In this document: positions 1 through 39,121 of the stretch, piece by piece
Position numbering within the stretch: position 1 is the stretch's first letter
Layout of the letters: the number at the start of each line of letters is the position of its first letter
Virus record (IMG/VR): IMGVR_UViG_3300039056_000005
Location: 1-39,121 of that record
From: a virus
Direction: 5' to 3' (one strand)
Length of the DNA stretch: 39,121 nt
The notes under the pieces: generated by a model
What the model was told of the DNA's origin: nothing
What the model saw: only the letters and a program-made list of their open reading frames with translations
Database searches by the model: none
Translations under genes and position numbers: made by a program

Positions 1-17
1 GTTTCCCAGTCACGATC
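1..17 (+). other. Library primer tag at left end
   Basis: These 17 bases are identical to the reverse complement of the last 17 bases of the window. They match the constant part of a primer widely used for random-primed amplification of viral DNA (starts GTTTCCCAG, ends CACGATC). Phage sequence begins at about base 18. The tag should be trimmed; it adds a few false codons to the gene that runs off this end. Confidence 0.9.
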
Positions 18-1109
18 CGAGGCCGCAATGCCACGGTCGGCTGCTTCTGCAAAACTCATGGCGGCGTCGGTACCGAAACGCTCACCAACGTATTCAATCA
101 CGCCTTCTTGGAATAGTTCGGTTGCGGCCTCTTTCGTGCCAGCCCCGGCGCCACCAGCGGCAACACGGGCAACGCCATTCCTCATAGCCAGCTTGCCAAC
201 GGATTCAGCCCCGGCTTTGGTAATACCTTTCGCACCATAGCGCTCTAGGATGGCGGATCCCAGGGCAAACGGCGCGGCTTCCAGCACGTCCGTCAGTTCT
301 GCCTTTTCCTTGCCCTTGTTCTGGGCGCGGGCCTCTCCCATTTCACCAGAACGGGCAATCACGTACCCGGGCAGTGACAGGGTAACGGCCACCATATCCG
401 GGATAGACTTGATACCTTCCTCAAAACCGTATTGCAAAACCTCTGCCCAGGCAGATCCTGACAGCGGCCCGTTCTGGCTGAACTCAAACTTCACCTGTTC
501 CCAGGTGTTATCCGGCACATAGCCGGCGTCCAGGTTCTTCAGGTTTTCGGCGGCCACGTCCAGGGCTTCAGTACCACCTTGCGCTTTGTACTCGGCGTAT
601 TCCTCGCCATTTAGGTACTTTGGTACCAGTCCGTCCTCCCACACAAAACCACCCAGCGGCATGGATTCTTCGGCGGATTCAGCCCCGGCGTTGATGGCGG
701 TCAGTGCGCCACCACCAAGATCCCCTACACGCTCAGCTGCACCACGGGCGGCATTGAAGTCCTGCACTTCCTTCCATTCACCAGTGGCACCCCTGGCAGG
801 CTCTGGCGGTAGCTCATAGCTGCCGGTGGCCCCATTGGGTCCGGTTTGCTCGATCTCTGCAGGCTCAGGTATAGCGGTAGGGTCTGCCGGCGCCGGACCA
901 CGGCGGCCAGCGTCGGCAATTTTGCGGCCGGTATCCGGCTGAAGGTTCAGCGGGCGCCGTTGCGGCTCCTGCTCGGGCTCTGGTTGGTCTTGGTACAGTT
1001 CGTTGTGCCAGCGTGCCAGCTCTCTTGCACCCTCGGTATCCCCTGCCAGGTGCGCCTTCTCAAGCGCGTTTAATAACTGATCCTTGGAAGGCTGCTGGTT
1101 CTCGCTCAT
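1..1109 (-). CDS. N-terminal part of giant ejection/polyvalent protein (partial, 3' end missing)
   Basis: The frame opens at an ATG (1107-1109), eight bases after the stop of the preceding ejection-protein gene, and stays open to base 1, giving about 364 genuine residues before the primer tag. The first 100 residues are rich in Pro, Glu and Gln. The rest is Ala/Gly-rich, with helical stretches such as GVARVAAGGAGAGTKEAA and no domain I can name. It occupies the place of the third ejection protein (P22 gp16 position) after two smaller ejection-type genes. The gene entering from the right end of the window in the same orientation also has no start, so I infer that both are pieces of one gene interrupted by an unsequenced gap. 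The visible sequence does not prove that joining. If they are separate genes, this one is a truncated ejection protein of unknown length. Confidence 0.8.
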   Translation of the reverse strand, partial: MSENQQPSKDQLLNALEKAHLAGDTEGARELARWHNELYQDQPEPEQEPQRRPLNLQPDTGRKIADAGRRGPAPADPTAIPEPAEIEQTGPNGATGSYELPPEPARGATGEWKEVQDFNAARGAAERVGDLGGGALTAINAGAESAEESMPLGGFVWEDGLVPKYLNGEEYAEYKAQGGTEALDVAAENLKNLDAGYVPDNTWEQVKFEFSQNGPLSGSAWAEVLQYGFEEGIKSIPDMVAVTLSLPGYVIARSGEMGEARAQNKGKEKAELTDVLEAAPFALGSAILERYGAKGITKAGAESVGKLAMRNGVARVAAGGAGAGTKEAATELFQEGVIEYVGERFGTDAAMSFAEAADRGIAASDRDWE

Positions 1110-1116
1110 TACTACC

Positions 1117-2010
1117 TCACTGGCTGTACATATTGAGTAGTTCGTTGCGGTCCATGGTACCGCCCTGGCCTAGATCACGCACGCTGATTCCCAGCTGGCG
1201 GGCGGCCTGTGTTACCGCTGCTGAACGTGTTTTAGCCTGGCCTTGTGAGTATAGCTGTGCGGCACGGGTTGTAATGGCCTGCACTTTGGAACGGTTTTCC
1301 GGGTTCAGGTTCTGCAGGTTGCCTTGCTGGTCAAAGATGCCCCCCAGCAATTCAGCGGCCTGGCGGAACATCAGGTTTTCGTCGGATGATTTGAAGTCGC
1401 TACCAGATCCGCCGGCTTGCTCTTTCAACAAGGCATTGCTGGTGGTCGATTCGATCATCTGACCATCCTTGTAAAGACGATCTTCCCCACCAAAGGTGAT
1501 TTGCTCGGGATTCTTCAGCATATCGTCCAGCTCACGGGCACGCGCCAGCCCCATCTGCACAAAGTTTGGGTCATATTCTTCGGGCATTTTACTGGCCAAC
1601 TCTGGTGATACGTTTTGTCTTGCCAGCTCATACCTTTGGGCTTGCTCTTGCTTCGTGCCAGCGGACAAAATATAGGAATTCATCCTTCCCAATGTTTCCA
1701 CGTTTTCTTCCATCTGCTTACGCTGGCGCTCGTCCATGCTCTTGAAGGCTTCCTGCACCTGCGCAGCTTCCTCCGGAGCGAAAGCGATCAGCTCACGCTC
1801 TGCCTGGCGGCCATCCTCACCCCCTGCAGCCACCCGGGAGCGTAACTGGTTCAGGGTCTGGCCACGCTGGCGGGCGCTTTCCCGGTCCTCTTTCTTCCAG
1901 TCCAGCGCCAGGGCGTTGGCCTTGCGCTGCTGTCGGGAGCCCTTAACCGCTTCAGTGGTGCGGTAAACCTCACCCATATCAATGCCAAACTGATTCGCCA
2001 TGTTAGCCAC
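1117..2010 (-). CDS. Putative DNA ejection (internal virion) protein, 297 aa
   Basis: A 297-residue, strongly helical, Gln/Glu/Ala/Arg-rich protein without signal peptide or clear membrane segment. Residues from about 25 to 150 look like long amphipathic helices with charged heptads. The C-terminal third has a short repeat-like pattern (RQLGISVRDLG) that could be a small helical bundle. No enzyme motif is visible. Its start overlaps the previous ejection-type gene by eight bases and its end lies eight bases from the start of the giant gene, so the three form a translationally coupled group. By position it corresponds to a P22 gp20/gp7-type ejection protein, released from the capsid to help DNA cross the periplasm. 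The assignment rests on context and composition. Confidence 0.6.
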   Translation of the reverse strand: MANMANQFGIDMGEVYRTTEAVKGSRQQRKANALALDWKKEDRESARQRGQTLNQLRSRVAAGGEDGRQAERELIAFAPEEAAQVQEAFKSMDERQRKQMEENVETLGRMNSYILSAGTKQEQAQRYELARQNVSPELASKMPEEYDPNFVQMGLARARELDDMLKNPEQITFGGEDRLYKDGQMIESTTSNALLKEQAGGSGSDFKSSDENLMFRQAAELLGGIFDQQGNLQNLNPENRSKVQAITTRAAQLYSQGQAKTRSAAVTQAARQLGISVRDLGQGGTMDRNELLNMYSQ

Positions 2011-2722
2011 CGGTGCCCAATGCTTTGTAGAGCAAGAAATTCTGTGCGCCCTGGTTCAAGGACTGCCCAATGCCCTGATAGGAGCTGGCGCGGGCGTTGC
2101 CTTGGTTTATTGCGCCTTGAGCCAATGCGTTACCCGTAGCCTGTGTTGCCTGAGTCACGTTGTTGGCCATATTGGTTCGGGCGTTCTGGTCTGCCTGGTT
2201 AGCCACCTGCCCCACGTTGGCCAGCGTTGCCAGCCTGTTAAACTGTGCGTTCTTGTTGCTCATGTCCAGCTTGTATTCGGTTGTAGCTCGATTGAATGCT
2301 TTGCCGTATTCCTGGCTGGCAAGATCTGATACGTACCGGGTCACGGCGCGGGCCTGTGCCCCCGACTGAAGCCGGCCCCGTGCTGCTGCGCTGGCATCCA
2401 GGGCATTGATTCCTTCTTGCCTGCGGAACTGGTACCCAGGATCAGCCTTAAATTTAAAGTTGAAATCTCCGGGATTGAACTCTCCCGACTGAACACCGGC
2501 CCGCAATTCCTCAAGGGATTCGGCGCCAATCTCACGCCATGGCGCGTTGTCCTCTCGCTGCTGATCGAAAATTTCTTTCTGGAAATCAATTGTTTCACGG
2601 TTTGCCTGAACCTGTGCATCACTGGCTTTCCCAGCTGCTTTTGATTGCGCCTTACCGGACTTGTAGGACGTATAGCCACCGACAACGGCGCTACCAACAA
2701 CGGCAGTTGCTACCCATGCCAT
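2003..2722 (-). CDS. Putative DNA transfer/ejection protein, P22 gp7-like, 239 aa
   Basis: The product opens with a short Gly/Ala/Val hydrophobic helix (residues 2-16, AWVATAVVGSAVVGG). Long Gln/Ala/Asn-rich helices follow, then a middle section with DFNFKFKADPGYQFRRQEG and NALDASAAARGRLQSG. That middle section is a recurring signature of phage proteins annotated as DNA transfer or tail-assembly proteins in P22-like and other podoviruses. The C-terminal half is Gln/Asn/Ala-rich with weak repeats. A GGGGGGTG ribosome binding site precedes the ATG. It probably sits inside the virion and is ejected with the DNA. It overlaps the upstream cupin-like gene by 13 bases and the next gene by eight. Confidence 0.7.
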   Translation of the reverse strand: MAWVATAVVGSAVVGGYTSYKSGKAQSKAAGKASDAQVQANRETIDFQKEIFDQQREDNAPWREIGAESLEELRAGVQSGEFNPGDFNFKFKADPGYQFRRQEGINALDASAAARGRLQSGAQARAVTRYVSDLASQEYGKAFNRATTEYKLDMSNKNAQFNRLATLANVGQVANQADQNARTNMANNVTQATQATGNALAQGAINQGNARASSYQGIGQSLNQGAQNFLLYKALGTGG

Positions 2723-3608: not shown

Positions 3609-3617
3609 GGCGTTACC

Positions 3618-6158: not shown

Positions 6159-6164
6159 GGCGCT

Positions 6165-6476: not shown

Positions 6477-6500
6477 TGCGGTTCTCCAGGCGGGATAAAA

Positions 6501-6540
6501 GTAAGGGCCTGACATGTGCCTGGCCCTTACTCGTTGCTGC
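6501..6540 (-). terminator. Hairpin terminator after the coat gene
   Basis: A perfect nine-base inverted repeat (GTAAGGGCC and GGCCCTTAC) with a 22-base loop lies ten bases past the coat stop codon. In the leftward direction the second arm is followed by TTTTATCC. This resembles a leaky intrinsic terminator that would set coat and scaffold transcripts above the tail genes downstream. Confidence 0.65.
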
Positions 6541-6550
6541 TACCTACCAA

Positions 6551-7813: not shown

Positions 7814-7833
7814 GGCTCAATACTCCTAAATAG

Positions 7834-8784: not shown

Positions 8785-8813
8785 GTCGCGTTGTCTCCTT
8801 CGCGGATTTATCC

Positions 8814-8865
8814 CCTGTGATAAGCCACAGGTAGCTTGTGGTCACATTATAGCCTGTTATCAGGC
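8814..8865 (-). promoter_or_regulatory. Candidate promoter and two hairpins between portal and scaffold genes
   Basis: Leftward strand: a perfect -10 hexamer TATAAT (8846-8851) lies in AGGCTATAAT. It is flanked by a hairpin over the portal stop (GCCTG, four-base loop, CAGGC; 8852-8865) and a second one before the scaffold gene (CCTGTG, six-base loop, CACAGG; 8814-8831). The best -35 candidate is a weak TTGCTG, 19 bases upstream. The same ten bases AGGCTATAAT recur before the tailspike gene. Confidence 0.5.
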
Positions 8866-10977
8866 ATTAACAGCAACTTCGCTGCCTTGCTGGCTCTGCG
8901 CCATGATCTCGGCCATGGCCTCAGCTACCAGGTTGCGCACGGTTTCTTCAATGGAGCCTGGCCCTGCCAGCATAGCATCCCGTTCAATCTCAGCCATTTT
9001 GGCGCGGGCTTCGGCGGTGTCGGCCTCGGCCTTGGCCATATCAGCTTGCGCACGGGCGGTGTCTGCTTCTGCCTTGGCCTTGTCTGCCTCGGCGCCGGCC
9101 ATATCGGCTTCTGCCTTGGCCATTTCGGCCTGTTGCTCTGGTGTCGGCTGCGGTGGCTGGATATCCAGTTCGTCCATTTCGTCCTGGTCCAGAATGCCCG
9201 GTGGCAGGATCTTCTTCAGGCGCTTGCTGATCTCGTCAGCTCCCGGCCAATCCATGTTCTTGGCTATCAGGTCCGCCAGCACGCCAGCGGCAGACGGTAC
9301 CGCTTGAGCAAACTGGATCAGGCTGTCAGCGGCCTGCAGTCGTTGAGTCTGGTATCCCGGGCCTGCCTTCACGGTCACGTCGAACTTGCCTTGTGCGATA
9401 TCGTGAACCAGCACGGGCTTGCCGGTTTCCTCGTCCATCACCATCTGGTTGATACGGAGCCAGTCGCCGGTACCGTCCTCAAACTGAACACGGATAACGC
9501 GCTCACTGTCGTATACCCTCGGGATCAGCTCAATACAGATCTGCCCGATACGGCCAATGGCACGGCTCAGGTTGTCGATGTAGGCGAAGGTTCCCCGGTC
9601 ACCCTGTTGCTGTCGTGCCAGGATGGCCTTGCCGCTGGTTTCGTTGCCCTGCGCACCTACGCTGGCATCGTACAGGCCAATGGTGGCCTTCATCTCGTCC
9701 GTGAAGCTCATGGCAATCTGCAGCTCTGCCGTGGGCATTGGAGTGCCCTGGTTGCGCTGCGGTGGCGGGATATCGGCGCGGGCGTTGTATCTCAGCACGC
9801 TGGCATTGTCGACGTTGGCGCTTTCCCACTCCTGTTCATAGCCCTCGATGGATTCAGCATCGGCCACCCATGGTGCCTTGGGCGCCAGGGCGGATTTCTC
9901 CGTTGCGGCCGTCATCCAGAAGTTGTGCATCCGTTGGGCGTCTTTCCCGTACCGGATCAGGCCACGGTAGAAGGTTTTATCACCAATGGTCATTTCCTTA
10001 CCCAGCACAGGGACCACGGGAATGGTCCGGCCTGGCCAGGTAACCGGGCCTTCCAGGATCTCGTAGGCGGTGACCTTGGCCCACTTCACCACGTAGGTTT
10101 TCACCTTCCGGGTCCGCTTGACGGTAATGCCCATCTCCTTCAGCTCGTCCAGAACGTCCTTTACCTCGTCCTCCCACACAACACGATCATCGCTCAGAAG
10201 TAGCAGGGTCCGGTTCTTCGGCTCACGCCAGAAGTATTCCGCCACCCGCACGCCTTCTTCACTCACCCACCAGGAATACTCACCACGGTCGGCGTCGATC
10301 AGATCCCCTCGGACTGCATCGGGATACCGCTTTTCAAACTCCTTCTTGCGCATCCGCTCCCCAATGAAGCAGAAGTTGGCATCTGAAAAGTCCGGCTCCA
10401 CGGCGTCAGGGTCCATCAGTACCGCGAAACGGTTGTGAATGCTCTTGATGCACAGATCCTGCTCAAAGGCATCATCCGTGGAATACTTGGTCAGCACGCG
10501 CAACCAGCCAAAACCACCTTCAACGGCGTGCTGGAATGCCGTGTCATAGTGCGCTTCGGCCTTGCTGGTGTACTCGATATTGCGGATCAGGGCTTCATAC
10601 ACTTCCGCCAGCGAGTAGTTCACCTTGCCAGTCAGGTTGGGTAGCTTCTGCGGCTCGTCCTCCCCGGCGCCGGCAATGTTGGCTTCAGTTGGATGCACAT
10701 GGATGGCTGGCCGGTTCTGGCGCTGGTCGCCCAATACCTGGTCAACGTACTGCGGGAGTTTGTTCAGGGTAAGGCACGGGCGCTGCTTCAGTTCCCGTTG
10801 CTGCTTGATGTAGTCCGGCCACTGCTCACCCGCCAGGAACTTGATATCTTCCTGCGCGGCGTCGAAGTTGTGCTGCCATGCCGTCTTGGCATAGTCCGCA
10901 CGCTCCCGGATCTCCTTCAGCATTTCTTCCTTGCTGTCACCCTCGCGGGTCTTTATCGGTTCTTTGCCTGGTAACAT
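8860..10977 (-). CDS. Portal protein, P22 gp1-like, 705 aa
   Basis: A large portal (705 aa; P22 gp1 is 725 aa) following the large terminase gene. Family features are the N-terminal WPDYIKQQRELKQRPCLTLN segment, the DQVLGDQRQNRPAIHVHP stretch, EQDLCIKSIHNRFAVLMDPDA and a long helical C-terminus. The start chosen is ATG 10975-10977 with GGAG seven bases upstream. The dodecameric ring it forms is the DNA entry and exit channel and docks terminase during packaging. Residues about 620-675 form a striking Ala/Lys/Glu/Asp repeat, likely an extended coiled-coil barrel crown like the one projecting into the P22 capsid. It ends next to a promoter-like region before the scaffold gene. Confidence 0.9.
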   Translation of the reverse strand: MLPGKEPIKTREGDSKEEMLKEIRERADYAKTAWQHNFDAAQEDIKFLAGEQWPDYIKQQRELKQRPCLTLNKLPQYVDQVLGDQRQNRPAIHVHPTEANIAGAGEDEPQKLPNLTGKVNYSLAEVYEALIRNIEYTSKAEAHYDTAFQHAVEGGFGWLRVLTKYSTDDAFEQDLCIKSIHNRFAVLMDPDAVEPDFSDANFCFIGERMRKKEFEKRYPDAVRGDLIDADRGEYSWWVSEEGVRVAEYFWREPKNRTLLLLSDDRVVWEDEVKDVLDELKEMGITVKRTRKVKTYVVKWAKVTAYEILEGPVTWPGRTIPVVPVLGKEMTIGDKTFYRGLIRYGKDAQRMHNFWMTAATEKSALAPKAPWVADAESIEGYEQEWESANVDNASVLRYNARADIPPPQRNQGTPMPTAELQIAMSFTDEMKATIGLYDASVGAQGNETSGKAILARQQQGDRGTFAYIDNLSRAIGRIGQICIELIPRVYDSERVIRVQFEDGTGDWLRINQMVMDEETGKPVLVHDIAQGKFDVTVKAGPGYQTQRLQAADSLIQFAQAVPSAAGVLADLIAKNMDWPGADEISKRLKKILPPGILDQDEMDELDIQPPQPTPEQQAEMAKAEADMAGAEADKAKAEADTARAQADMAKAEADTAEARAKMAEIERDAMLAGPGSIEETVRNLVAEAMAEIMAQSQQGSEVAVNA
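8995..9130 (-). repeat. Degenerate repeat encoding AKAEAD units in the portal C-terminus
   Basis: About five imperfect copies of a 21-24 base unit encode hexa- to heptapeptides of the form AKAEAD, AGAEAD and ARAQAD in tandem. The period suits an alpha-helical barrel. The DNA copies differ mainly at third codon positions, so the repeat is old and held at the protein level. Confidence 0.7.
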
Positions 10978-10987
10978 GGTCAGTCTC

Positions 10988-12607
10988 CTATGCGCCAAGC
11001 CAACCACCAGGGCCAGGACTGTGGGCTTTCCTGGCTGGCTTTGGTTTCTCGTCTTTCCAGTTTAGCCCCATCTGTTGGAGCGCGTCGGTGTAGTTGGTGG
11101 CCCACTTCGGGCCTACAGTATCCTTGAAGGTTTCGTTGTCGTGGTCCCATTCCCGGCGCAACGCCTTGATGGCCTTCCACCCGGTGTGGTTCGCCATATC
11201 GCCCTGGTTCCCGGAAATGTCAGTGTCACAGCGTACCTTGTCGATCCAGATACGGGGAAACAGCTTCTTCAAGGCGTTGATGGATTCCCGTTTGTTCTTC
11301 ACCCGTGGCACAGTCTTGAACTTAATGCCCATCCGTTTGGCGGTCTGCAGTCGGCGCTCACCCGACATAAGCTCCCGGACCTCGATATCGTGAGGCGCCA
11401 TGTGTTCACCAAACCGGATTCCGTACTTGTCCCGGAAGTCATGCAGCCAGTTGATGTAATGCTCCATGCCCTCATCCCGGTTACCGTAACAGGCAATGCA
11501 ACGGATCTCCTTCTGGTGTACCTGAACCAGCCAGATTGCCATATCGTCGTTGATACCAAGATCCCAATAGGTGTGAACGGGCAGGCTTTTCTCAACGGGG
11601 ATGTTGGTAAGGCGGCTTTCCTCGAGCAATAGCTCAACCTCAGTCTTATACACCACGCCTTCCGCCAGGGCATCGTCCGGTGACTGCTGGTATTGGGCAC
11701 TGAACATATAGTTGTCGGCTTTTTCCATGGCAAGCAGTGTCTCCGTGGGCTCTTTCTCTGGCCAGTAGCTGACACGCTTGCCGGTAAATCCGGTGTCACG
11801 TATGCAGGCTTCCCGCATTTCGTCACTCAGCTGGTCCAGGTAACTGCGGTCGATTATGGCAGGGATCTTGAACAGCTGGTAATTGTCCGGGCTTTTATCG
11901 CTGTTCAGGTAGTCGGTGCTGTCGCCCTTGGCTATCCGCTGCTGCACCATGATGATGGGCACGTTGTCGTGTGCCAGGCGGGAGCGAACGATACGGTTGA
12001 TACGCTTGTTGCCCTTGTCGATCAGCCGGCCACTCTCGGCGTCCTTGGGCGGCAATGGATCATCCATTACCAGTGCCCCGGTGAATCCTTCCTCCATGAA
12101 TCCAGCACGGCGGCCTGTTACCTGGCCATTGATGCTGGTGCCGTACAGCCGGTGCTGGTTGCCATGCTGGTCGATGTACTTCCAGTTGTGCTTGGCCTTG
12201 GTGTCCTTGGATGGCGTCAGCGGCCATAGAGTCTGGAATTCCTCACTGTCCAGGATCTCCTTCACCCGGGTCGCGTTCTCGGTCACCAGGTCGTCGGAGT
12301 AGGAAAGCGGGAGCCATCGTGTCGATCGCTTCTCAGATATGCACTTGAGGATGCACCAACACGGCCAGTGGATGGACCATATCTCTGTCTTTGTGCTACC
12401 GGGCGCCACGTTGACGATTCCCCGGGGGATCTCCATACGGTAAACGGATTCGGCCAGGCGGCATTCATAGGTGTGGTGCCAATTCTTGCGGAACTTCTGG
12501 CCCTGCAGTAGCTGGAAGAAGATACGCATAAACGCTTCAAAGGATGCTTCACTGGCCACCTTCACGGCCAGCTTCTCCGCGTCCGTCATTTCCTCCCACT
12601 TCAGCAT
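10988..12607 (-). CDS. terL: Terminase large subunit (packaging ATPase-nuclease), 539 aa
   Basis: The ATPase half has a Walker A variant APGSTKT at residues 68-74, and the Walker B strand ALVMDD at 178-183 is followed by a proline pair, as in Terminase_6-type proteins. The nuclease half begins near residue 345 with YWDLGINDDMAIW, where Asp349 is a likely metal ligand of the RNase H-like fold. The protein pumps DNA into the procapsid through the portal and cuts the concatemer. It starts sharing one base with the small-subunit stop codon and ends ten bases before the portal start. The P22-like module suggests headful packaging, which would also explain a circularly permuted genome. Confidence 0.92.
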   Translation of the reverse strand: MLKWEEMTDAEKLAVKVASEASFEAFMRIFFQLLQGQKFRKNWHHTYECRLAESVYRMEIPRGIVNVAPGSTKTEIWSIHWPCWCILKCISEKRSTRWLPLSYSDDLVTENATRVKEILDSEEFQTLWPLTPSKDTKAKHNWKYIDQHGNQHRLYGTSINGQVTGRRAGFMEEGFTGALVMDDPLPPKDAESGRLIDKGNKRINRIVRSRLAHDNVPIIMVQQRIAKGDSTDYLNSDKSPDNYQLFKIPAIIDRSYLDQLSDEMREACIRDTGFTGKRVSYWPEKEPTETLLAMEKADNYMFSAQYQQSPDDALAEGVVYKTEVELLLEESRLTNIPVEKSLPVHTYWDLGINDDMAIWLVQVHQKEIRCIACYGNRDEGMEHYINWLHDFRDKYGIRFGEHMAPHDIEVRELMSGERRLQTAKRMGIKFKTVPRVKNKRESINALKKLFPRIWIDKVRCDTDISGNQGDMANHTGWKAIKALRREWDHDNETFKDTVGPKWATNYTDALQQMGLNWKDEKPKPARKAHSPGPGGWLGA

Positions 12608-26851: not shown

Positions 26852-29107
26852 TCAGTTCCAGCTATTGCCTGTGCTTTTGATTGTAGCACCCACTGCTGAT
26901 ACTCTTCCTGTAATTGAGCCATTACTGCAACCGCTGACAATTACAAAATCTGACGCCTGCATCCGTATATCAGAGCCTGAAATCGCCTGAGTGAAATGGC
27001 AGGCACTAATTATCGCATTTTTTGCATAAATACCATCTATGTGATAAGCGGTGTTAAGGTCAAAACTTACGCCGTTAACGATGAGCGTTGCTTTGTTCAA
27101 GCTGTTTCCGTTTAGATATAACCCCCTTGATCCTGCCCCTTTGATGCTCCCGCCGTTAATCACATACTTTATTTCTGACGCTGATGGTATATTTTCAAAA
27201 AGAATTCCCCCAGTGCATTCATCAATGTCATTGTTTGAGAGGAATAAGCTTTTCATGAATCCAACCCTTATTCCATAAAGTCCTCCAGATACGACATTGC
27301 CACTAACAGTGCATCTATAACTTAATGTTGCTCCGTCTGCCGGACCTTGTATGTATATGCCTGAGTTGTTTTCTCCGGATAAGCGAATAACGTTATTTTC
27401 GCAAACCCAATCAGTCACATCTTCTGCAATTGTCGAGTGAGTCATGGCGATCGCAGAGGATGAGCCTGCATTGTTATCGCCATCAACAATATTATTTGAA
27501 CAAATTACGCGGTTGCTTCTTGTTATCTTAAATGGCGTATAGTAGTAATCTTTTGCTGTGTTGTTAGTAATTACTGTGTTTTCTGACCTATTGTAAAGAT
27601 CTACGCACCCAATATAATGAAATCCGCCTGTTATCGGCTTTCTCTGTCCAACCCTCTCAAAATAACAGCCATCAACAACAATGCTGCTATAGCTGTGCAG
27701 AGATATATCTTGTACATCAAATATAAAACCACCACCAGCAGCGTCAGCAACCAAAACAGATGAATTCTTGACAATGCAGTTAGTGAATCTTACGTTAGCG
27801 GTCGTGCTTGAAATTCTGAAATTTACCGCCTGAGTTTGTTCGCCAGTTATTCCGGTTGCCTCTGCCATATCGTAAAATTTGCAACTATCAATTATTGCCG
27901 TGTCAATTGGAGCGTTTGGACAGTGCACACCTGAAAAAACTGAGTTGATAAATGTAACACCTAAAACCTCTATGTTTGTACCTGTAAAATTAATACATGA
28001 CTTTAGCCTATCAGTCTGATTTGATTGATTCCCGTCAAAGGTTATATCGCCATCAATGAAGATAGAATCTGTTGCAGAAATCATATGGCTATTGCTTAAG
28101 GCGGCGAGAACAATTTTCGAGGAGCCTGTACAGGTCAAATAAATACTGGCTACTGAGGATAGCCCTGTAATGCTGTATATCGCAGAATCTATTAATTCCA
28201 CAGGAAGTTGAAGAGAAAGCACAGAGTTCAGGGAGGCAGTGTCATCAGCAGTTCCGTTTCCGACAGCGCCAGCCATTTCAGGGGTTAGTTTTCCTGAAAG
28301 AATTCTTTTAAATCTTCCGGTTGTTATCGAAGTAGCTTTAAAGATTGTTACGCCATTAGCGGTTTCTGTGCTTGTAGCATCCCAATAAAACGGACCGCCG
28401 CCAACATCCGTGCCTGCGTAATATCCTGTTACCTCATATCTCGAACCATCAGCAGGCTCAGAGGCAATAGCCTCAAGCTCCGCCACACTACCCACATAAA
28501 TGGTGCGCTTGTCCAGAGCCTGAGTCACCGTGTCAGAGGTGCCGGTGTGGGATACTAGGTCGGAGCCAAGGGACGAAAAAGCAGCAACTATGTTTCTTTC
28601 TGCATATTGTGCTGTTGAAGATATCGTGGCGCCGTCGAGCATACTTAATTCAACGGTTGTTTTTCCGTCTGCATAAGTGGCACTGACTACAGTGCCAAAA
28701 ACAAAACCAAAGTCCTGCTTCACCCGAATCGCAACGCCTTTCACGTATTCATCGGTCAGCCCACCATCCACAGTGAACGTGGTGGTGTTCACCTGCGTGA
28801 TATTGCGCTGGCGAACCCACTCCTTCTGAAGTTGGCTCGGATCACTTACTGGATCACTGGTCCAGACTTCTACATCGTCGGCATCCTTCACCACGACTTT
28901 GTAGCTGCCGTTCAAAAATATATCGGCATAACCTGCGCCATTCAGGATTACAGGGTTGGCGTTCTGTGTTTCTCCGCCCTCAGTAGTGAAGGTTGCTTTA
29001 GGTGTGTTAGTTCCTGCCTGGTAGGTGTAAACCTTGCCGAAGGCCAGCGGTTTTCCGGTGTCGCTGTCCCAGGCGTAAAACTTGGGACCAATGATTGCTA
29101 CTGCCAT
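26852..29107 (-). CDS. Tailspike / receptor-binding protein with beta-helix, 751 aa
   Basis: Residues 1-110 are the conserved adaptor that plugs podovirus spikes to the tail: MAVAIIGPKFYAWDSDTGKPL, FGKVYTYQAGTNTPKATF, VILNGAGYADIFLNGSYKVVV. Residues about 110-270 form a stem and linker (TLTPEMAGAVGNGTADDTASL at about 273-293 opens the spike). Residues 275-745 are a right-handed parallel beta-helix, with repeated strand and turn patterns such as NVRFTNCIVKNSS and NNTAKDYYYTPFK, as in polysaccharide-cleaving spikes. The helix-coding part is markedly AT-rich compared with the adaptor part. It would bind and probably trim a surface polysaccharide. The catalytic residues are not identifiable by eye. 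Confidence 0.88.
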   Translation of the reverse strand: MAVAIIGPKFYAWDSDTGKPLAFGKVYTYQAGTNTPKATFTTEGGETQNANPVILNGAGYADIFLNGSYKVVVKDADDVEVWTSDPVSDPSQLQKEWVRQRNITQVNTTTFTVDGGLTDEYVKGVAIRVKQDFGFVFGTVVSATYADGKTTVELSMLDGATISSTAQYAERNIVAAFSSLGSDLVSHTGTSDTVTQALDKRTIYVGSVAELEAIASEPADGSRYEVTGYYAGTDVGGGPFYWDATSTETANGVTIFKATSITTGRFKRILSGKLTPEMAGAVGNGTADDTASLNSVLSLQLPVELIDSAIYSITGLSSVASIYLTCTGSSKIVLAALSNSHMISATDSIFIDGDITFDGNQSNQTDRLKSCINFTGTNIEVLGVTFINSVFSGVHCPNAPIDTAIIDSCKFYDMAEATGITGEQTQAVNFRISSTTANVRFTNCIVKNSSVLVADAAGGGFIFDVQDISLHSYSSIVVDGCYFERVGQRKPITGGFHYIGCVDLYNRSENTVITNNTAKDYYYTPFKITRSNRVICSNNIVDGDNNAGSSSAIAMTHSTIAEDVTDWVCENNVIRLSGENNSGIYIQGPADGATLSYRCTVSGNVVSGGLYGIRVGFMKSLFLSNNDIDECTGGILFENIPSASEIKYVINGGSIKGAGSRGLYLNGNSLNKATLIVNGVSFDLNTAYHIDGIYAKNAIISACHFTQAISGSDIRMQASDFVIVSGCSNGSITGRVSAVGATIKSTGNSWN

Positions 29108-29132
29108 GGTGTCTCTCCTGGTTGTTTCGCTG

Positions 29133-29142
29133 ATTATAGCCT
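29133..29142 (-). promoter_or_regulatory. Candidate promoter box before the tailspike
   Basis: AGGCTATAAT on the leftward strand, containing a perfect TATAAT, lies at the stop codon of the giant gene and about 25 bases before the tailspike start. The same ten bases occur before the scaffold gene. No good -35 box is seen, so an activator may be needed, or the match may be chance. Confidence 0.4.
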
Positions 29143-32100
29143 ACGGCATTTCGTCATGTACTTGCTCCAGGGCATCCTTGGCCTGGCGGTAAAATTTCTC
29201 AAGAGCCCGGTTTTTCTGCTCATAGTAGCTTTCAATCGCTGATTCTTTCTGCTCGGCAGTCATGTTCTCGTTGTACTTGTACGAGGCTATGATTTCCTGC
29301 TGATCGTCAAAAGCATTGTCGATCTGACTGAAGGCGCCATTCAGGCCAATCAGGATCTGGTTCACCTTATCCCCGGCAAACTCCGGCGCCTTGGATGGAT
29401 CACGGATGGCCTCACGCTGCAGCATGTTGAACGTCTGCTGTGCGGCGGCGGCCTTTACCTTCAGATCCCAATAGCCTTCTGTCCATTTTGTCCGGTATGG
29501 CACTTTCTGGCCAACGAACTGGTGCGTCATGTAATCAATCGGCGCGCCCCGGTTGAACGGGCGCGGCCCCCAATCGTCCTGCTTCCACAGGGCGGCCTCT
29601 GACGCATCGGCAATAATCATCTCCACATAGCGCAGAAATCCCTTGCTGTAGTGCTCTGCCACCAACGGTGATACCCCCAGGTATTCACCCAGCTTGCGGT
29701 ACATGATGGGCGTGCGGTCGGTGTACTGGTATTCAGCCGGGATATCCATCATGTAATGCGGCACCACGGGCGCCCCGGTGAACTTCTCATTGCGCTGAAC
29801 TTCTACCCAGGGCTGAAGGATACCGGGATAATCCCCGATACCAACGGTGTTCACCAGGGCCCATGCCAGGTGTTCGGATGCTTCTTTTCCGTCCCTTTTC
29901 TTCACATAGTCCAGGCCTACTTCCGGCAACGTGGCAAAGATATGGCCAAGGTCATACGGGCGAGGGATCTTGAACGGCGTGTCGGCGCCGGGGATGAAGA
30001 TCCACCAGAAGCGGGCTTTCTGGTCTGGCGTCAGCTGCTGGTACCGCTCATCATCCTGGTTCAGCAACCACAAGATCACACTCATCATGGTCAGCACACT
30101 GCCTTTCATCAGGAACACGGCTTTTTTATCAGTCATGCGTGCCAGGTTGGTGCCTTTCATTTCCCCGCGGATCTCGGAAAATTCCCGGGCGGCCTTGTCC
30201 AGCCCCTGAATGCCGGCGTTCATAAACGGCACGGTGCGCAGGAACTTGGCCCACAACTCATTGCGGCCCATCTTGCTAAAGTCGGTAGCGATCTCCCTGG
30301 CCTCCCAGGCGGCCTCCATCGGTGACGTGCCTTTCTTCACACCCAACTCATAATCACCAATGCGCGAACCGTACTCGAAAGCGCTGGTGAAGCGGTCCCA
30401 GCCGGCCAGGAACTTTGCGGCCGCATCCCAGCCGGATTCGCTCGGCAGGTCCAGCCGGCGCCGGTCGCGGGTTTCCTGTGTCCGGGCCTCGATCCTGGTA
30501 CCGTAACCGCCACCCTGCAGCCGGAATTCCTTGTAGATCTTGGTATTGAACATGAAGTGCCCCATGCCCTTGAGCGTGCTGTAGACCGGAATGAATCGGT
30601 TGCGGCTCATAATGGCGGAACTGACAGTATCCCTGACGGCGTTCGGCCCCAGGAACTGGAACATGCTGGTAACCGTCCGGGTCTGCAGGTTCTTCACCCG
30701 GTACAGAGCATTCATCACGGCGCCACTGCGAAGCCCGCTCAGGCCGGTGAGCATATCCACCAGCAACGGCTCATGCACTTCAAAGTACACCCGCTTGCCA
30801 TTCACCACGGCGCTGTCCACGTAGGTTTCCGTGGTCTGCGGCTTGTGCCCGAAGGTCCAGAAACTCAGCAATGCCGGGTTGGCTTCCAGGGCGGCGGCGA
30901 TATCCTCCACGTCCGTCACCTGTGCGTCCGGATCTCCGGCCATAATCATGCCGTCCTTGCTCACGGTCAGCCCCATTTCCGCCATGGCCTCGGCCATCTT
31001 GGCGGCCATCTGTGCCTGCTCAACCTGCACCTTCTTGCTGTCCGGTGCGATCTTCGCGGCAAACAGGGCGCCGTCCTGGCTGTTCATAATGTCGTTGTAG
31101 AGCGTTGCCTTGGCGCGGGCGATAATGGCGGCCCGTATATTCGATTGCAGGCTTTCGACAATGTTTTCTGCTATTTCCCGAGTGTTTTGATACCCACCCC
31201 TTAGCTGACTTTGTATGTCACCAGCGCCCATTTCGTGGCCATCCTCAATGCGCTGAATTACACGATGGAACGGCACGTAGTTCTGGTTCATCTTCTTGAA
31301 AGCTCGGCGCTGGCTTTCGTCAATCAGCCCCATCTGCACGTAGAAATCCAGCATCCTGCCATTGAACTTCTGGAACTCATCGAACACCTGCGGGAATTCC
31401 GGGTATTTCTGGCCCAGGGCAAGGCCGGCGTCAATCTCCTGGTCGGTGAAAAGGTTTTCTCGGCCCTGCTTCATCAGTTCCTGGCCTCGTCTGGCCTTAA
31501 AATACTCCATAAGAGCATCAAACCTTGGCCACCCGTGTTTGGCCACTGGCTTAAACACCTCATTCAATCCCTTTCCGCTGAACTCAAAGTAACCATCTTC
31601 AGTAAGCCTTGGCGTGCCGTCTTTCATGACGGCCTCATGCACGGATTCGGCGCCGTTCAGCATCTGGAACTGCTTGTACGGGCTCACCATGGCTTCGCCA
31701 ACTTCGCCCTTCAGCGTGCGCTCAACCACCTTGGCAGCATGGATCTTGTCAATCACCTGCTGACGATACCGCTCCAGTGGGTAACTGCTCTGGTATTCGA
31801 TTATCTGCTGCCTAGGCGTTAGCTCACGGCCAGACTTGGCCCGAAACTGTGCCCGTGGCCCCTGCAGGTACCAGCGGTGCATTTCGTCCTGCAGGCGCTT
31901 CATCTTGCGATCCAGCACGGCATCATCTTTCATCACCTGTTCAAACCTCTGCGTGAACAGTGGTGCCCTGGCCTTGGCCTCGCTGTAGTTGGTCAGCCAC
32001 AGGCGCACGAACTCGGCAAAACCTTCCTTGGCCTTCAGGTTCTTCTTGCTGGTGTAGCTCAACGCCTCCACTTCCTTGCGGTATTTGCTGTCCTTGTACT

Positions 32101-35100
32101 CCCGGGTAAACCGCTTGTTGTAGCGGTAGTGCATATCCAGGTAGTGCGCCATTTCGTGCGCCATCACCTCTACATTGTCGTAGCTCTTCACCCGCACTTC
32201 GCTGTTGTTGCTTCGGTAAAAGCCCAGCTTTGACTTGCCCTGGACTTTTCCGAAGTAGATACGCTTTCCAATCAGATCCTGCAGCATGAACCGGATACCC
32301 TCACGGCGGGTCGGTTTTTCCTCCGGCTTCAGGGTTACGGTGCGATCCCCAATCTTGAATTTGCTGTTGTCCGGGCGCCGTGGCACGCCTGTCATGCTGT
32401 ACGGTGGCTGCCACTTAGGCATGGGTACATCGGCCCCCATATCGCTCATCATGGCGCTGGTGGCGTCCTGGCTGGTGGCGTCCTGGTCCTTTTTGGGCTG
32501 CAGCTCGGCAATCACCAGCTGGTGGCGGGCCTTAACCTTTGACAATTCCTCGGCCTGGTCCCACTCCTGCACCTGTTCTTCCAGCTTTGGCAGATCCCTT
32601 TCGGCCTGCTTCACCCGGGCGGCCTGCTGTTTGGCCTCGGCGTCGATGGCTGAAATGGTGTTGGCCACCCTGCGCGCCAGGCCGGTGGCATCGGCGCTGC
32701 CGATATCCTTGATATCCACCTGGTGTTCCAAGGCGCCGTCCAGGGTCAGCACAAACCGTGTTCCGGTGACATTATCCAGGGTCATATCAAAACCGGCATA
32801 GCTGCCAATGGCCTTGGATTCGGTACCGGCGTCTGACATTTTCGCGGCTTCCGCCAGGATCTCCTGGCCGGCGTCCTTGTGCTTGTCGAACGTCTGGCCA
32901 TTCACGGTGATACTGAAGTCTTTGGGCGCGGCCTTGGCCTTCTTCACGTCCTGAGCGTACTTCAGCAAGCGATCCTTGCCCCGCTCCACAATAGATTTTT
33001 CGCGGCGGATGGCGTCACGGATGCGGAACTGTTCGCGGTCGTGTTCTTCCTCGGCCTGTTCCAGCTTTCGCAGTTTCTGGCGAAGATCCATTTCTTCCAG
33101 GATCAGCGGATTGCCACTTGATGCCGCTTTCATCTCGGCGGCGTTGGCTGATTCCGCTCCCAAGTCCTCGATCTCGCGCTGTTTGGTGTTGCCCTTGCGC
33201 ACCTGCTCGATAAACCGAGCCTTGGTTTCGATGGTCTGCCACATGCGGCTGTCCAGCGTCTGCTTGGTGGCGTAGCGGTTGATCTCGATTTCAAAGCCAT
33301 TCGGGTCACGGTCGTACAACTCGTTACCCTGGCGGATAATCCGGCCTTCCCGCTGTTCCAGGTCTGACGGCCTCCACGGTGCATCCATGTGGTGGAGCCC
33401 CACCAGGCGGGTCTGCACGTTCATGCCGGCGCCCATCTTGGCAGTGGAGCCCATCAGCACGCGAACACGGCCTGTGCGCACCTTGGCGAACAATTCAGCC
33501 TTCTGCAGCTCGGTGTTGGCATCGTGGATATAGGCCACTTCCGATTCCGGTATGCCTAGGTTAATCAGCTTCTGGCGCAAGTCGTCATACACACTGAAGT
33601 CGCCATCCAGGGCTTCCAGCTCGTCCGGGCTCATGCGGTCCAGCTGTTCGCTGGCGGCCTCGTCGCCATCCTCGGCACGTTGGATCAGGTCACGGATTCT
33701 GTTGGCTTCCTGCGCCTTGGCGCCCTTGGGCGTACTCAGGTCGATGAATACCAGCTGCGCACCCTTGTCGTCGGCCCACTGGTCGTACAGTGTTTTAATC
33801 CGGCTGGCGGCCTCGTTGATCTTGCTGTCTGGGTTGTCGACGTACAATGCCGGGTCGATCAGGCGCATATCCAGGGCGGCCTTCCGGGCATCGCTCATAA
33901 TCTTGAGCATGTTGTCGGCGCCCTTCTCCGGCTTCTTCGGCAGGTGTTCAGCACGCCATACCAGTGAGCCCTTCGGATAAACCTCGTTGCCCCGCTCATC
34001 CTGAACGGGCACGCCAATGTAATCGGCCTGGTCCTTGCTGCGCTCCACAACAATGTTATTCGGCTTCCCGCCCTTGATCTTCGGTACCGGAAGGCGCTTG
34101 CCCTGTGCCGCCAGCTGCTTGTTGATATCGTCGCGGTTTACCACGTCACCAAAGGTCAGGTACCGCTGCATCAGCTCGGGCAGGTTCACGAACTTTCTGA
34201 AACGGCTGTTCAGCTTGTAGCTGCCCGTTGGTGACAGCTCCCAATCGGTGACCACTTCCCCGTACATGCGTGCCCAGGCATCGAAGTGTGCAATGCCCTG
34301 GTCCTGCAGGGTCTGGTAATCCAGGAACCGCTGCATCGTATACATTTCCGCCATGGTGTTGCTGATTGGCGTGCCGGTGGCGAATACCACGTTGTTGCCG
34401 CCAGTGCGCTCCAGGATGGATTGCACCTTCATAAACATATCGGCGGCCTTCTGGCTGCCCTGCGGGTTACCCAGGCCGGCAACGCGGGTCATGCTGGTGG
34501 CAAAGCCCAGGTTCTTGAACTCATGGGCTTCATCCAGGAACAGGGCATCCACACCCAATTCACCAAAGGTCAGGTTATCGTCCTTGTTCTCGGCATCGAA
34601 CAGGCGCTTCAGCCTTTCCTGAAGGCGCTCTTTCTGCTTCTCGATCTGCTTGATGGACCGGGCGCCCTTGCCTTCCTGGTCGCGGATAGTGGAAATGGCG
34701 GTGTCGATATCCCGGATCTGCTGGTTGATAAACCGTTCCTGGAACTCGGCATCCATTTCGACCTTGCCAAACGAGGAATGCGCCACAATCACGGCGTCCC
34801 AATCCCCGGTGGCGATCCTGGCGAACAGGCGCTTACGGTTACCCTTCTCAAAGTCTTTCTTGGTGGCGGCCAGAATGTTGGCGTTGGGATACAGCTTGGT
34901 GAAATCCTCGGCCCACTGGCCCACCAGGTGATTCGGTACCGCGAACATGGGCTTTTTGGCGCGGCCTGTCCGGCGTAGCTCCATGGCCCCGGCGATCATG
35001 GTGAAGGTTTTGCCGGCGCCCACTACGTGATCCAGCAACGTGGTACCGCTCTGCACAATCCGCCAGGCGGCATTGGCCTGGTGCGGACGCAACTTCACAA

Positions 35101-38100
35101 TGTCGTCGCCCACCTTGCCAGGGAACGTCAGGTGCGAACCGTCATACTTCCGCACGCGGTCGGTGTTGAAGGTGTCGTTGTAGAGTCGAACTAGGCGATT
35201 ACGGCGGGCATCGTCTTTCCAGATCCAGCGGCGGAACTCCGCTTTCACCCGTTGAATCTTCTCGTTGGCGGCGTTGGTGGCGGATTCGTTGATAACGGTG
35301 GTGTTTTCGTCCACTCGATCCCGAATCACTATGCTCTTGTCGTTTGCCGCGGCGGTCAAAATATCGCTCACCTGCGCACGGTCGGTACCGTACTGGCTTT
35401 CGGCGGCGGTTGTCGGGCTGCCTTTGATGTTCCACTTGGCCATTACCGGGTTGTAGGTTGCCTTGCCGCTGGCGTTACCCAGGATATGGTCGGCAAACTC
35501 GGTCACCACTTCCGGCGGCAACCAGTGGGCGCCAGGCTTCACCCGGATATCGACGGCTTCAATGTCCTCCGGCTGCACATCCTTCAGGGCCTGCACGTTG
35601 CGCTCAAAGCGCGGCATATCCTTCGCCATGCGCTCGGCCATGGCCAGCTTCTGCTTCACGTTGCCGGACAGGTATTCGTCGCGGGATTCCCAATTATTGG
35701 GCGTACTCTCGAAAACCAGGTCGCCCAGCTCGGCCACAATGGCGCTTTCCGTCTTGCCGTACAGTTGGCTCATGTACTTCATATCCACCCGGCCCTTTTC
35801 GGACAGGCTGGCGGTCAGTGCATCCTTGGCGGTGGTGGCTTTCTCCGGCGCCTTGTAGGGCTGCTGTGTCCGGGTCCGGAAGATGGCGGCCTTCTCGGCG
35901 CTCGGCTTGCGCGGGGTTTCCCCGGTGCGCTTGGCCACGGTCGGGCTGATACCCTTATCAAAGGATTCTTCCAGGGCGGCCAGCTGCGGCCAGGTTGGAT
36001 CATCCCGGAATAGGCGCTTGTTGGCATCCAGGTTGATGGGTCCGTTCTTCTTTACAAACTGGTCATACACCCGGTTGAGTCGGTCACGCAGTGCGCCCAG
36101 GGCCTCGTCCTTCACGTTTTCGGTCAGCTGCGCCTTACGCAGATCCGCGAACACGTCACGGACCTTAATCAGACCACGCACCCGTTCTTCGGCCTTTTTG
36201 CTCGGCATTTCCACGGGCTCAGACCGGGCCTGCCCCATTTCGCTTTCCAGGCGGATGCTGATCTGGTCGCCATCCAGGAACATGCTGCCCACCTTCACGT
36301 TCTCCACGCTGGTCGGCAGGGTTACTTCCTCGGATACCGGCTCAGTGGTGGCGGCGTCCATAAAGTCTTTTGGCAGGCTGGCCAGGGCTTCCTGCAGTAG
36401 CGCGTTGGTGTCTTGCCCCTGCCTTGCCACCAGGGCAGGCTCATTCGGCCCGTACATCGAACCGTAGGCGCCCCATTCACCCAGCATCATCCCCGGATTG
36501 CGGTCGAAGTATTCGTTTAACGGTACCTCGATACCCTTGGCATCCTTCACGGTGTTGACCACGGACCAGGATTCACCAGACGGCTGCTCTCCCTCCCGGC
36601 GCTTACGCAGAAAGATGATATCGGTAGTGACTTCGGTGCCGGCGTTCTTCAGGAATGCGTTGTTCGGCAGTCTCACAGCGCCCAGCAAGTCGGCACGCTC
36701 GGCCAGGTAATCACGCGCCATCTTGTTGTTGCCGTCCATCAGGCGGCTCGATACCACCATGGCCAGCACGCCATTGGGTTTCAGGCCGGCCATAGATTTG
36801 GCGAAGAAGTAATTGTGAATGCTCATTTTCGACAAGGCTTTGCGCTTGCCGTCATACAGCTTCTGATTGCCAAACGGCGGGTTACCAATGGCCAGGTCAA
36901 AATAGCCATCCGGCATGTTGAACTCTTGAAAGCCCATCGGTGCCTGAATGTTGGCGCCAGGGTACAGCTTCTGCGCAATGCCCCCGGTGATATGGTCCAG
37001 CTCCACCCCGGCAATGCTGCTCTTGGATCTCACGCCACCCGGCATGAATCCCAGGAAGTTGCCGGTACCAACGGATGGTTCCAGCACGCGGCCACCCTGA
37101 AAGCCCATGTTCTTCACGGCCTTCCAGATCTCGGTGACAATCTCCGGGCTGGTGTAGTGGGCATCCTGCGTACTGCGGCGAGCGGCGTCATATTCTGCTT
37201 CGGTCAAGGCCTCCTGCAGCTGTTTGGCCTCCTTCTCCCAGCCCTTGGTGATCTTGCCGCGGTCACCCACAAAGGCTTGAGGCAGGCCACCCCAGCCCAC
37301 ATAGCCGGCCAGGATCTGCTGTTCCTCCGGTGTGGCCTGGCGGCCTTCTTCGTTCAGCTGCTTCAGTGTCTGGATGGCTTTCAGGTTGTTCTTGAACTTG
37401 GTTTTGGCCCCGCCAGCACCAATGTTCATTTCCGGCGTCAGTGTGAAGAACTTGGCCGGCCTGTCGCCTGCTGGCTCTGCTCTCTGCGTTGTTGCGCCTT
37501 TTGGCGTTGGCGCCTTCTTTGCCGCTTTTTCTGTCGCATCTACGCTTCCCTCAGATCCTCGGGTTGCGGGCTGTCTGCTTCCAGCGTCCTGCTCATCGTC
37601 TGCAGGGCGTCGCTCAGTATCGCGGGTCCGTTGCCCGCCGGCTTGTCGTTCTCCGGTTCCCCCGGTGGAAACAGGTACGTTTCCCTCACCATCTGAAACG
37701 CCTCGTCCGGCTGGTACCCCGCTTCCTCCAGCTCGATCACCTGCTGGTACGTCTGTTCCGCTGCCTGTTTCAGCATCGGGTCCAGCGTCCCCTGCTTCTT
37801 CAGGCTCTGATACAGCTTCGGCCTGTTCTCCTTCCAGTGTTCTCTGGCCTGGTTGATCCAGTTCTGCAGGTTCATCCTGTGTTACCTCCGATGGTCGCTC
37901 GGCAGTGTCACCCGGCGTACCTTGGTCCCGGGCGGCAGGCTGGCTAGAAACTCCGGCGTCACCTCCGGACCTTGTGACGCCTGGCGGGGTTTCGCCTCGG
38001 CCTGCTCGTTGCCCGGTGCGCTCCCGCTCTGCCTTTTGGGCTTGTAGCCCTCGTTCTGCTGCTTCGATCGTTTCCGCTGTGCCATAACTCAGCCCTATTC

Positions 38101-39104
38101 CACGCTTGGTGATTACCTCACCACTCGGTAGCTCAAATTCAATAATAGCGTTTTCCAACTCTGCAGCCACTTCCTGCATCAGCTGTTCCGCTTCCTGTTG
38201 GGTATTGGCCTGCACCCAAAACTCATCACCACTCGGATGATACGCATCGGCGCCCTTTGCTTTGAATGCGCGGCCAATGGCCTGCAGCATCTGATCCCCG
38301 GCGCCGTGGCTCATGTTGTCGTTGATCCACTTCAGGGAATCGGCGTCAACTGATACCTGTACAGGCTTGCGCTCGTTTTCCTCATAGGCGCGGCGGTTGC
38401 CCAGGCCGGTTAGATCATCCTCAAGCAGTGCCTGGCGCATTTCGTCCTGTGTCATTTCAGCGACACGGCGGCGGGTTTGCGGGTCTTGTCGGCGCTCTAC
38501 GTTCGCCACGCCATCACCCTTTCTATCTTTTGCCTGAGCCAGTGCTTCAAGCGCGTTATCCCAATTTCCGGATATCGGCGTATCTCCTTCAGCATCAAAT
38601 GCTTGGAATGTATCGTCCCTGCGATCCTGAATCAGTTTTATACCGGGATCGTCGGTGTAATACGTGTAGATATCGAGAGGATCTTGCCAAACCTTGCCAG
38701 CCTTTCCTTGGAAATCAGGAAATTGGCCGTCTTTAATCTTGTTTGGCGTTTGGCCATCATAGCGCCGTTTGGTGGTTGCGGGCTCTGGCGCCGGAATATC
38801 CGCCAGCATCTGCCTGGCCTGATCGGCTCGCATATCCCACAACTGCGCATCAGTCACCCCGGCATCCCGCAACTGGTTGCGCTCAAACGGCGTCAGATCA
38901 TCAGCGGCCTGCCCGGTTTCCTGCCCGGCTTCTTGCTCAGGCTCTGGCCGGTCTGCTTCTTCCGGCGGCCTCACTGGCTGCAGCGGTACGTTCATATCCT
39001 GCGGCATTGCACCCTGGCGCGGCGCGATATCAATGCCCCGTTCTTTCAGCTTCTGCGCTACCAGGTCACCCATAGTCGGGCGCTCTGGTGCCCGTACCTT
39101 CTCA
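29141..39104 (-). CDS. Giant polyvalent protein: GGDEF, DNA methylase, SF2 helicase, zincin and C-terminal ejection-type domain (partial, 5' end missing)
   Basis: The frame is open from the primer tag to a TAG at 29141; the first Met (39073) has no ribosome site, so this is the rest of a longer gene. Numbered from that Met (3,310 residues): GGDEF domain 215-350 (DLTGLGNRR 220-228, SGDEF 281-285); disordered linker 350-540; adenine methylase 590-830 (EPSVGTGNF 665-673, NPPFG 731-735); SF2/SNF2 helicase 1325-1950 (GAGKT 1352-1356, DEAH 1514-1517, ATGTP 1565-1569, QREGRIIRQG 1907-1916); coiled coils about 1990-2190; zincin HEMAH 2306-2310 with likely third ligand Glu2354 in GFAEFVRLW; long C-terminal domain 2440-3310 (NAVRDT, hydrophobic helix 2990-3004). 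Methylase-helicase fusions such as P1 DarB protect incoming DNA; large phage polyvalent proteins are thought to be ejected with it. Confidence 0.9.
37540..37875 (-). CDS. Overprinted gene nested in the giant gene, 111 aa
   Basis: In a second frame of the same strand, GGAGGT lies eight bases before ATG 37873-37875. The product is a helical, normally composed protein: NLQNWINQAREHWKENRPKL, then TLDPMLKQAAEQTYQQVIEL and GYQPDEAFQMVRETYLFPPG. It reminds me of small phage proteins of the W....RP..Y..LK..G type with a VRE.YLFPPE-like end. By hand count about 83% of its codons end in G or C, like nearby genes, while the giant frame over the same bases has only about 30% in the 30 codons I counted and encodes low-complexity Gly/Ala/Pro/Glu/Arg text. 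Function unknown. It stops at 37540 (TAG). Confidence 0.6.
   Translation of the reverse strand: MNLQNWINQAREHWKENRPKLYQSLKKQGTLDPMLKQAAEQTYQQVIELEEAGYQPDEAFQMVRETYLFPPGEPENDKPAGNGPAILSDALQTMSRTLEADSPQPEDLREA
37882..38085 (-). CDS. Overprinted gene nested in the giant gene, upstream partner, 67 aa
   Basis: In the same frame as the 111-residue nested gene, ATG 38083-38085 opens a basic protein: a Lys/Arg/Gln-rich start (AQRKRSKQQNEGYKPKRQ), then VTPEFLASLPPGTKVRRV and a stop at 37882, which overlaps the next gene's GGAGGT ribosome site. About 79% of codons end in G or C. The start has only a weak site (GAGTT), so it is less certain than its partner. It could bind nucleic acid, judging from charge alone. 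It begins in codon 330 of the visible giant frame. Confidence 0.45.
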   Translation of the reverse strand: MAQRKRSKQQNEGYKPKRQSGSAPGNEQAEAKPRQASQGPEVTPEFLASLPPGTKVRRVTLPSDHRR

Positions 39105-39121
39105 GATCGTGACTGGGAAAC
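39105..39121 (-). other. Library primer tag at right end
   Basis: Reverse complement of bases 1-17. In the leftward strand it starts the window with GTTTCCCAG and reads in frame with the giant gene for five to six codons, which are artificial. Phage sequence ends at 39104. Confidence 0.9.

Follow-up and report, generated by a model that had tools for sequence, protein, structure and literature searches.

Polyvalent proteins were defined by Iyer et al. in 2017, who proposed that they are delivered at invasion and processed by a zincin (PMC5512222). One of them, the firmicute prophage protein WP_004096050.1 of Acetonema longum, combines GGDEF, SNF2, adenine methylase, zincin and ADP-ribosyltransferase (ART) domains (PMC5512222). 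The DarB protein of phage P1 is stated, in work cited in PMC9144972, to guard incoming phage DNA against type I restriction. The DarB-like gp69 of Burkholderia phage JC1 (4,515 residues) was detected by mass spectrometry, through 51 unique peptides, in virions purified on CsCl (PMC9144972). Among the closest described homologues of the gene studied here is gp01 of Vibrio phage VvAW1 (YP_007518343.1, 'DarB-like antirestriction', 3,640 residues). The present analysis concerned a giant gene of the same position, direction and size in the virus record IMGVR_UViG_3300039056_000005, from a P22-like short-tailed phage. The whole stretch analysed, 39,121 bases, is called the window, and the features of the gene are all given on its minus strand.

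The gene was seen as two open frames at the window ends. The left frame (3..1109) had no stop codon and the right frame (29141..39121) had no start before the contig end, and the original prediction had correctly noted their common direction and complementary missing ends. The N-terminal 364 residues, from the ATG, were translated from 18..1109, and the C-terminal 3,320 residues, to the stop codon, from 29141..39104 after one leading base. A 3,320-codon open frame is far above chance expectation. In VvAW1, where the gene order was the same, the gp02 homologue and the tail fibre gene bordered a single coding sequence of 3,640 residues. In four uncultured relatives (L016, L018, L019 and L020), the gene was an uninterrupted open reading frame (ORF) of 3,726–3,863 residues with a common MSENQQPS start, which brought to five the relatives that carried the whole gene as a single ORF. 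Two arrangements had been named beforehand as contrary to one gene, a stop codon followed by a new start and unrelated sequence between the parts; neither occurred in any relative. The two end frames are almost certainly one leftward gene, split by primers left on the contig ends.

The 17-base sequence GTTTCCCAGTCACGATC was found as an exact match at 1..17 on the plus strand and, in the opposite orientation, at 39105..39121 on the minus strand, with zero internal copies in the window. It is not of phage origin and corresponds to primer B of random PCR, or sequence-independent single-primer amplification (SISPA), in which Primer A consists of those 17 bases and nine random bases (PMC5492393). 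The ~9 bases inside each primer (18–26 and 39096–39104) lie under the random nonamer and are possibly derived from the primer, not the template. The same 17 bases were present in at least 120 other IMG/VR viral contigs (L116–L195 and further), nearly always terminal and at one or both ends, and on this ground a terminal repeat of the phage was abandoned as an explanation for the primer ends. Untrimmed SISPA primers were common in the IMG/VR collection and are able to mimic terminal inverted repeats. Because the primer stands at both ends, the window ends are the ends of amplified fragments, artificial as had been claimed, and the break is without biological significance. The gene split is an artefact of primer-ended assembly, and 'missing ends' in such records give no basis for biology.

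When the two parts were aligned with the protein of the closest relative, L016 (IMG/VR 3300003534_000001, 3,759 residues), which spans the junction in one ORF, the left part corresponded to residues 1–371, with 81% identity over the N-terminal 362 residues, and the right part resumed at residue 430. The matching points were separated by 168 bp, with two unaligned residues allowed for, and subtraction of base 39104 left 167 missing bases, which satisfied the required remainder of 2 modulo 3 and kept the frame. The L019 and L020 proteins implied ~60 missing residues, and the overall range was about 56–60. Because the relatives imply a missing stretch of this size, the full protein is estimated at about 3,740 residues and the gene at about 11.2 kb, or about 28.6% of a genome of ~39.25 kb. 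The predicted share of about 28% was borne out by this arithmetic. The predicted length of about 3,680 residues agreed with the sum of the two parts (3,684) and fell short of the full protein by the missing 56–60 residues.

The domains were assigned with the Pfam gathering scores as threshold. A BA3-phage-type N-terminal region (residues 119–359, within 18..1109) was recognized by its matches to BA3-type proteins. The adenine-specific DNA methylase (36683..37087; Eco57I, PF07669) contained motif I, VLEPSVGTGNF (37055–37087), and GNPPFG (36869–36886). The SNF2/ResIII-type helicase (33323..35098; Pfam ResIII and Helicase_C) contained GAGKT (35006–35020), DEAH (34517–34537) and QREGRIIRQGN (33323–33355). 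The methylase, the helicase and the GGDEF domain described below, which had all been predicted, passed the threshold, and the predicted polyvalent-type C-terminus was identified as LPD38, a large polyvalent protein associated domain (29588..30052, E = 8e-35). The zincin-like metallopeptidase motif (32009..32158) consisted of HEMAH (32144–32158) and EGFAEF (32009–32026). The predicted zincin was upheld at the level of this motif, HE-x-AH...EGFAEF, which was conserved in every one of the 14 distinct proteins examined from the VvAW1 cluster and the BA3 type, the window protein included. Two results weighed against the architecture: the Pfam score of the zincin (MPTase-PolyVal) was below cut-off (12.9 vs 27.5 bits, E = 0.12), and the structure model of the N-terminal region, predicted from 11 sequences, was unusable, with a predicted local distance difference test (pLDDT) value of 40.

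In PHROGs, the protein matched the DarB-like antirestriction family phrog_10089 (E = 0), and the methylase-helicase core was homologous to DarB-like proteins in PHROGs, to JC1 gp69 and to the methylase segment of P1 DarB. PADLOC gave only methylase/helicase-type matches on the giant protein and zero for the GGDEF module. Several unrelated enzymatic domains were present in one polypeptide together with accessory LPD and zincin-like domains, and the gene was situated among virion genes. From these testable features of polyvalent proteins, the gene product is, by sequence, a DarB-like polyvalent protein, a member of the class already described in 2017. The 'multi-function weapon delivered with the genome' of the original prediction is the published view of that class (PMC5512222) and is not new.

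The window protein was 73% identical to VvAW1 gp01 over 2,912 residues, covering the methylase, helicase, zincin and LPD38, and 79% identical over the first 47 residues. However, VvAW1 gp01 had no GGDEF, and its N-terminal region and cassette zone were different. JC1 gp69, a homologue of Bcep22 gp75, shared the methylase and helicase (34% identity over 1,890 residues, E = 0.0); it is longer, and the alignment was limited to the core, with the N-terminus and the GGDEF outside. The methylase segment of P1 DarB was 31% identical to that of the window protein over an alignable stretch of only ~190 residues. The methylases of BA3-type podophages (Thalassomonas phage BA3, Shewanella phage X14 and Vibrio crassostreae phages) matched window residues 119–359 at 55–57% and the zincin region at ~46% identity, and their genes had the same position before the tailspike, whereas these proteins are shorter (~2,700 residues) and their middle part was different and unalignable to the window. 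When 18–1109 and 32009–32158 of the window were compared with two BA3-type loci (L114 and L115), these regions were shared and the middle differed, as if the two ends formed a common chassis. The Acetonema longum protein, likened here by description and not by alignment, unites the same activities in a single giant chain and has been proposed to act likewise at entry, but it belongs to a firmicute prophage, while the window protein has a BA3-type N-terminus and LPD38.

The GGDEF module (38000..38494) comprises 165 codons, starting at RRQD and stopping short of RGETPPG. The Pfam GGDEF match (PF00990, 38030..38419) scored 27.1 bits against a cut-off of 23.8, and contained the SGDEF loop (38219–38233) and DADSLKWINDN (38315–38347). 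The model of the module had a pLDDT of 89.5, and its best PDB matches by Foldseek were the diguanylate cyclases PleD (6.6e-9), SiaD and SadC. The motifs N.RAY, SLKWINDNM.H and YH.SGDE were shared by nine phage-encoded copies, in which D59, N67, D68 (module-alignment numbering) and the G-D-E of the loop were invariant. When the module was compared with that of the homologue L021, the proportions of nonsynonymous (pN) and synonymous (pS) differences were 0.12 and 0.71, with synonymous sites near saturation, which indicates that the module is under strong purifying selection. The standalone GGDEF genes of Yuavirus and Vojvodinavirus were 34–40% identical to the module, but each is a separate small gene, unfused and away from the structural genes. 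The closest GGDEF, at 75% identity, was found in a different phage (L022:7283-17293, IMGVR_UViG_3300032040_000017), where a single open frame, 3,337 codons or longer, joined it to a Strawberry-notch-type helicase and ART-PolyVal.

The module is likely to be enzymatically active. Three observations count against activity and would fit a catalytically dead module that serves only in nucleotide binding or as a structural spacer: the active-site loop is SGDE throughout the phage family, compared with the canonical GG(D/E)EF; the score was below the cut-off of NCBIfam TIGR00254 (25.9 vs 37.4); and engineered VCA0965 lost its activity when serine occupied the first position of the motif (PMC3974145). 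However, ECA3270, with a natural SGDEF, is active (PMC3974145), the catalytic-motif residues were conserved across the nine phage proteins, and the module showed the purifying selection described above. Lysogens of Bordetella phage LK3, from a group with a standalone GGDEF homologue, showed hyperbiofilm, which is a correlation only (PMC8471281). A dead module was judged unlikely on this balance, although it was the strongest of the alternatives considered.

Delivery with the genome was assessed from the neighbourhood and from homologues. The upstream neighbour was the VvAW1 gp02 homologue (1117..2010, minus strand; phrog_36852, unknown function), and two genes upstream was a DNA ejection protein (2003..2722, minus strand; phrog_598). 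The downstream neighbour was the tail fibre gene (26852..29107, minus strand) in the position of VvAW1 gp40. These assignments came from PHROGs and VvAW1 synteny; the giant gene lies, as it does in VvAW1, after the ejection genes and ahead of the tail fibre gene, in agreement with the predicted ejection-protein position. Several more distant core relatives, mostly in phages of ~61–68 kb, had an N-terminal lytic transglycosylase domain, which would fit ejection through the wall. Because JC1 gp69 was found in virions and distant relatives carry the lytic transglycosylase, it is reasonable to infer that the window protein is packaged and ejected. Virion data for the window phage or VvAW1 were not found, which weighs on the other side. 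The giant gene lies among late genes, and PMC9144972 cites Piya et al. 2017 for a link between the P1 antirestriction system and capsid morphogenesis, so the protein might instead have a late role in the producing cell, for example with its methylase and helicase in packaging or capsid assembly, and not be injected. The 51 peptides of the JC1 homologue in purified virions, the transglycosylase of the relatives and the position after the DNA ejection gene made such a late role quite improbable.

The best overall explanation, held at a probability of roughly 80%, is one gene with ~167 bp unassembled between two random-primer sites, encoding a DarB-like polyvalent protein of ~3,740 residues that would work as follows. 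In this short-tailed phage the protein would be packed in the capsid together with the ejection proteins, and it would enter the host with the DNA. The methylase and the SNF2-type helicase would act on the incoming DNA and protect it from restriction, and the zincin may cleave the polypeptide into fragments. The GGDEF module would make a cyclic dinucleotide, most likely cyclic di-GMP, and might shift host signalling. The position of the GGDEF would be an exchangeable payload zone, as a close relative has lost the module and carries an ADP-ribosyltransferase instead. The locus is a further example of a GGDEF enzyme forming part of an entry protein that has a virion-borne homologue; the active site of this enzyme is a variant one, though probably workable.

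The continuity of the gene could also be coincidental, with the two end frames being separate genes or unrelated pieces at the contig ends. The junction itself was absent from the sequence data, the missing stretch is known from relatives, and an exact search, which did not extend to the metagenome collection, gave no further contig of this virus over the left end. This possibility was nevertheless considered very unlikely, because five relatives have one ORF, the two ends aligned, correctly ordered and in frame, with successive parts of one relative, and the neighbours on either side followed the VvAW1 gene order. The claim of a single gene was thereby sustained by continuous homologues and frame arithmetic, with the junction not directly read.

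The zone that ends at the conserved linker DEP(T/A)ELDQPGQ (37874..38791) differed between close relatives. In DNA, L016 (the same as L032) was 93.6% identical to the window over 28813–37886, and the two proteins shared 96% identity across 2,946 residues, but in L016 the GGDEF was deleted with a scar and an ART-PolyVal was inserted. Compared with the window, the deletion had removed 405 bp (38000..38404, 135 codons) cleanly and in frame, with a GGCC microhomology on either side. The scar read EMTQDEMRQALLEDDLTG/RGETPPGVTR, in which EDDLTG was joined to RGETPPG. The ART-PolyVal domain (PF18760, 77.6 bits vs cut-off 31.2, 2.2e-21 in Pfam) was located ~40 residues downstream of the scar, before the linker DEPTELDQPGQ. 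Because L016 retains both conserved module ends, loss in L016 appears the simpler direction than gain in the window; a recent insertion in the window was rejected on the same remnants. An assembly chimera that misplaced the GGDEF segment into the giant gene, as the lack of GGDEF in close relatives and the chimera-prone nature of amplified viromes might suggest, is hardly credible, since L016 has these remnants at the same place and a contig from another metagenome (L015, IMGVR_UViG_3300039055_000100, 1-12194), which includes the GGDEF, was 100% identical to window 26902–39079 over 12,178 bp. The primer also stands at the beginning of L015, near the end of the window.

The documented loss of GGDEF with an ART-PolyVal nearby is the informative addition beyond the known class. 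It provides a natural comparison, GGDEF present or deleted with ART-PolyVal nearby and the other 2,946 residues 96% identical, which is usable for asking what role the payload has in the first minutes of infection. Among the 23 core-bearing loci of the viral scan, GGDEF was present in one (L031), which is the same virus as the window. The cassette zones of L018, L019, L020 and VvAW1 contained other segments, with zero Pfam families above cut-off; an ART-like look of the L019 segment, noted by eye, was unsupported and is not claimed. On these alignments, the GGDEF looks like an exchangeable cassette. A wider proposal, tentative and put at somewhat less than an even chance, is that an injected giant protein has a site for payload exchange between its N-terminal region and its methylase core. 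There, near-identical phages would replace a cyclic-dinucleotide synthetase with an ADP-ribosyltransferase or with unrecognised modules, in the manner of the tips of polymorphic toxins. If true, the phage would re-arm its entry protein against differing host signalling or defence systems and leave the rest unchanged.

Two further observations were made in relatives. In the cassette zone of L018, a segment exceeding 60 residues (SEQEADDASSVGIGSQVTFNGKDETVADV...QTATDAK) was present twice, at about residues 530 and 815, which is a further sign of rearrangement. A distant core relative (L052:3351-8000, IMGVR_UViG_3300020156_000034) carried two domains ahead of the methylase core, a zeta-toxin domain and a 2'-5' RNA ligase-like one, and the latter had weak similarity to Acb1, an inhibitor of the cyclic oligonucleotide-based antiphage signalling system (anti-CBASS).

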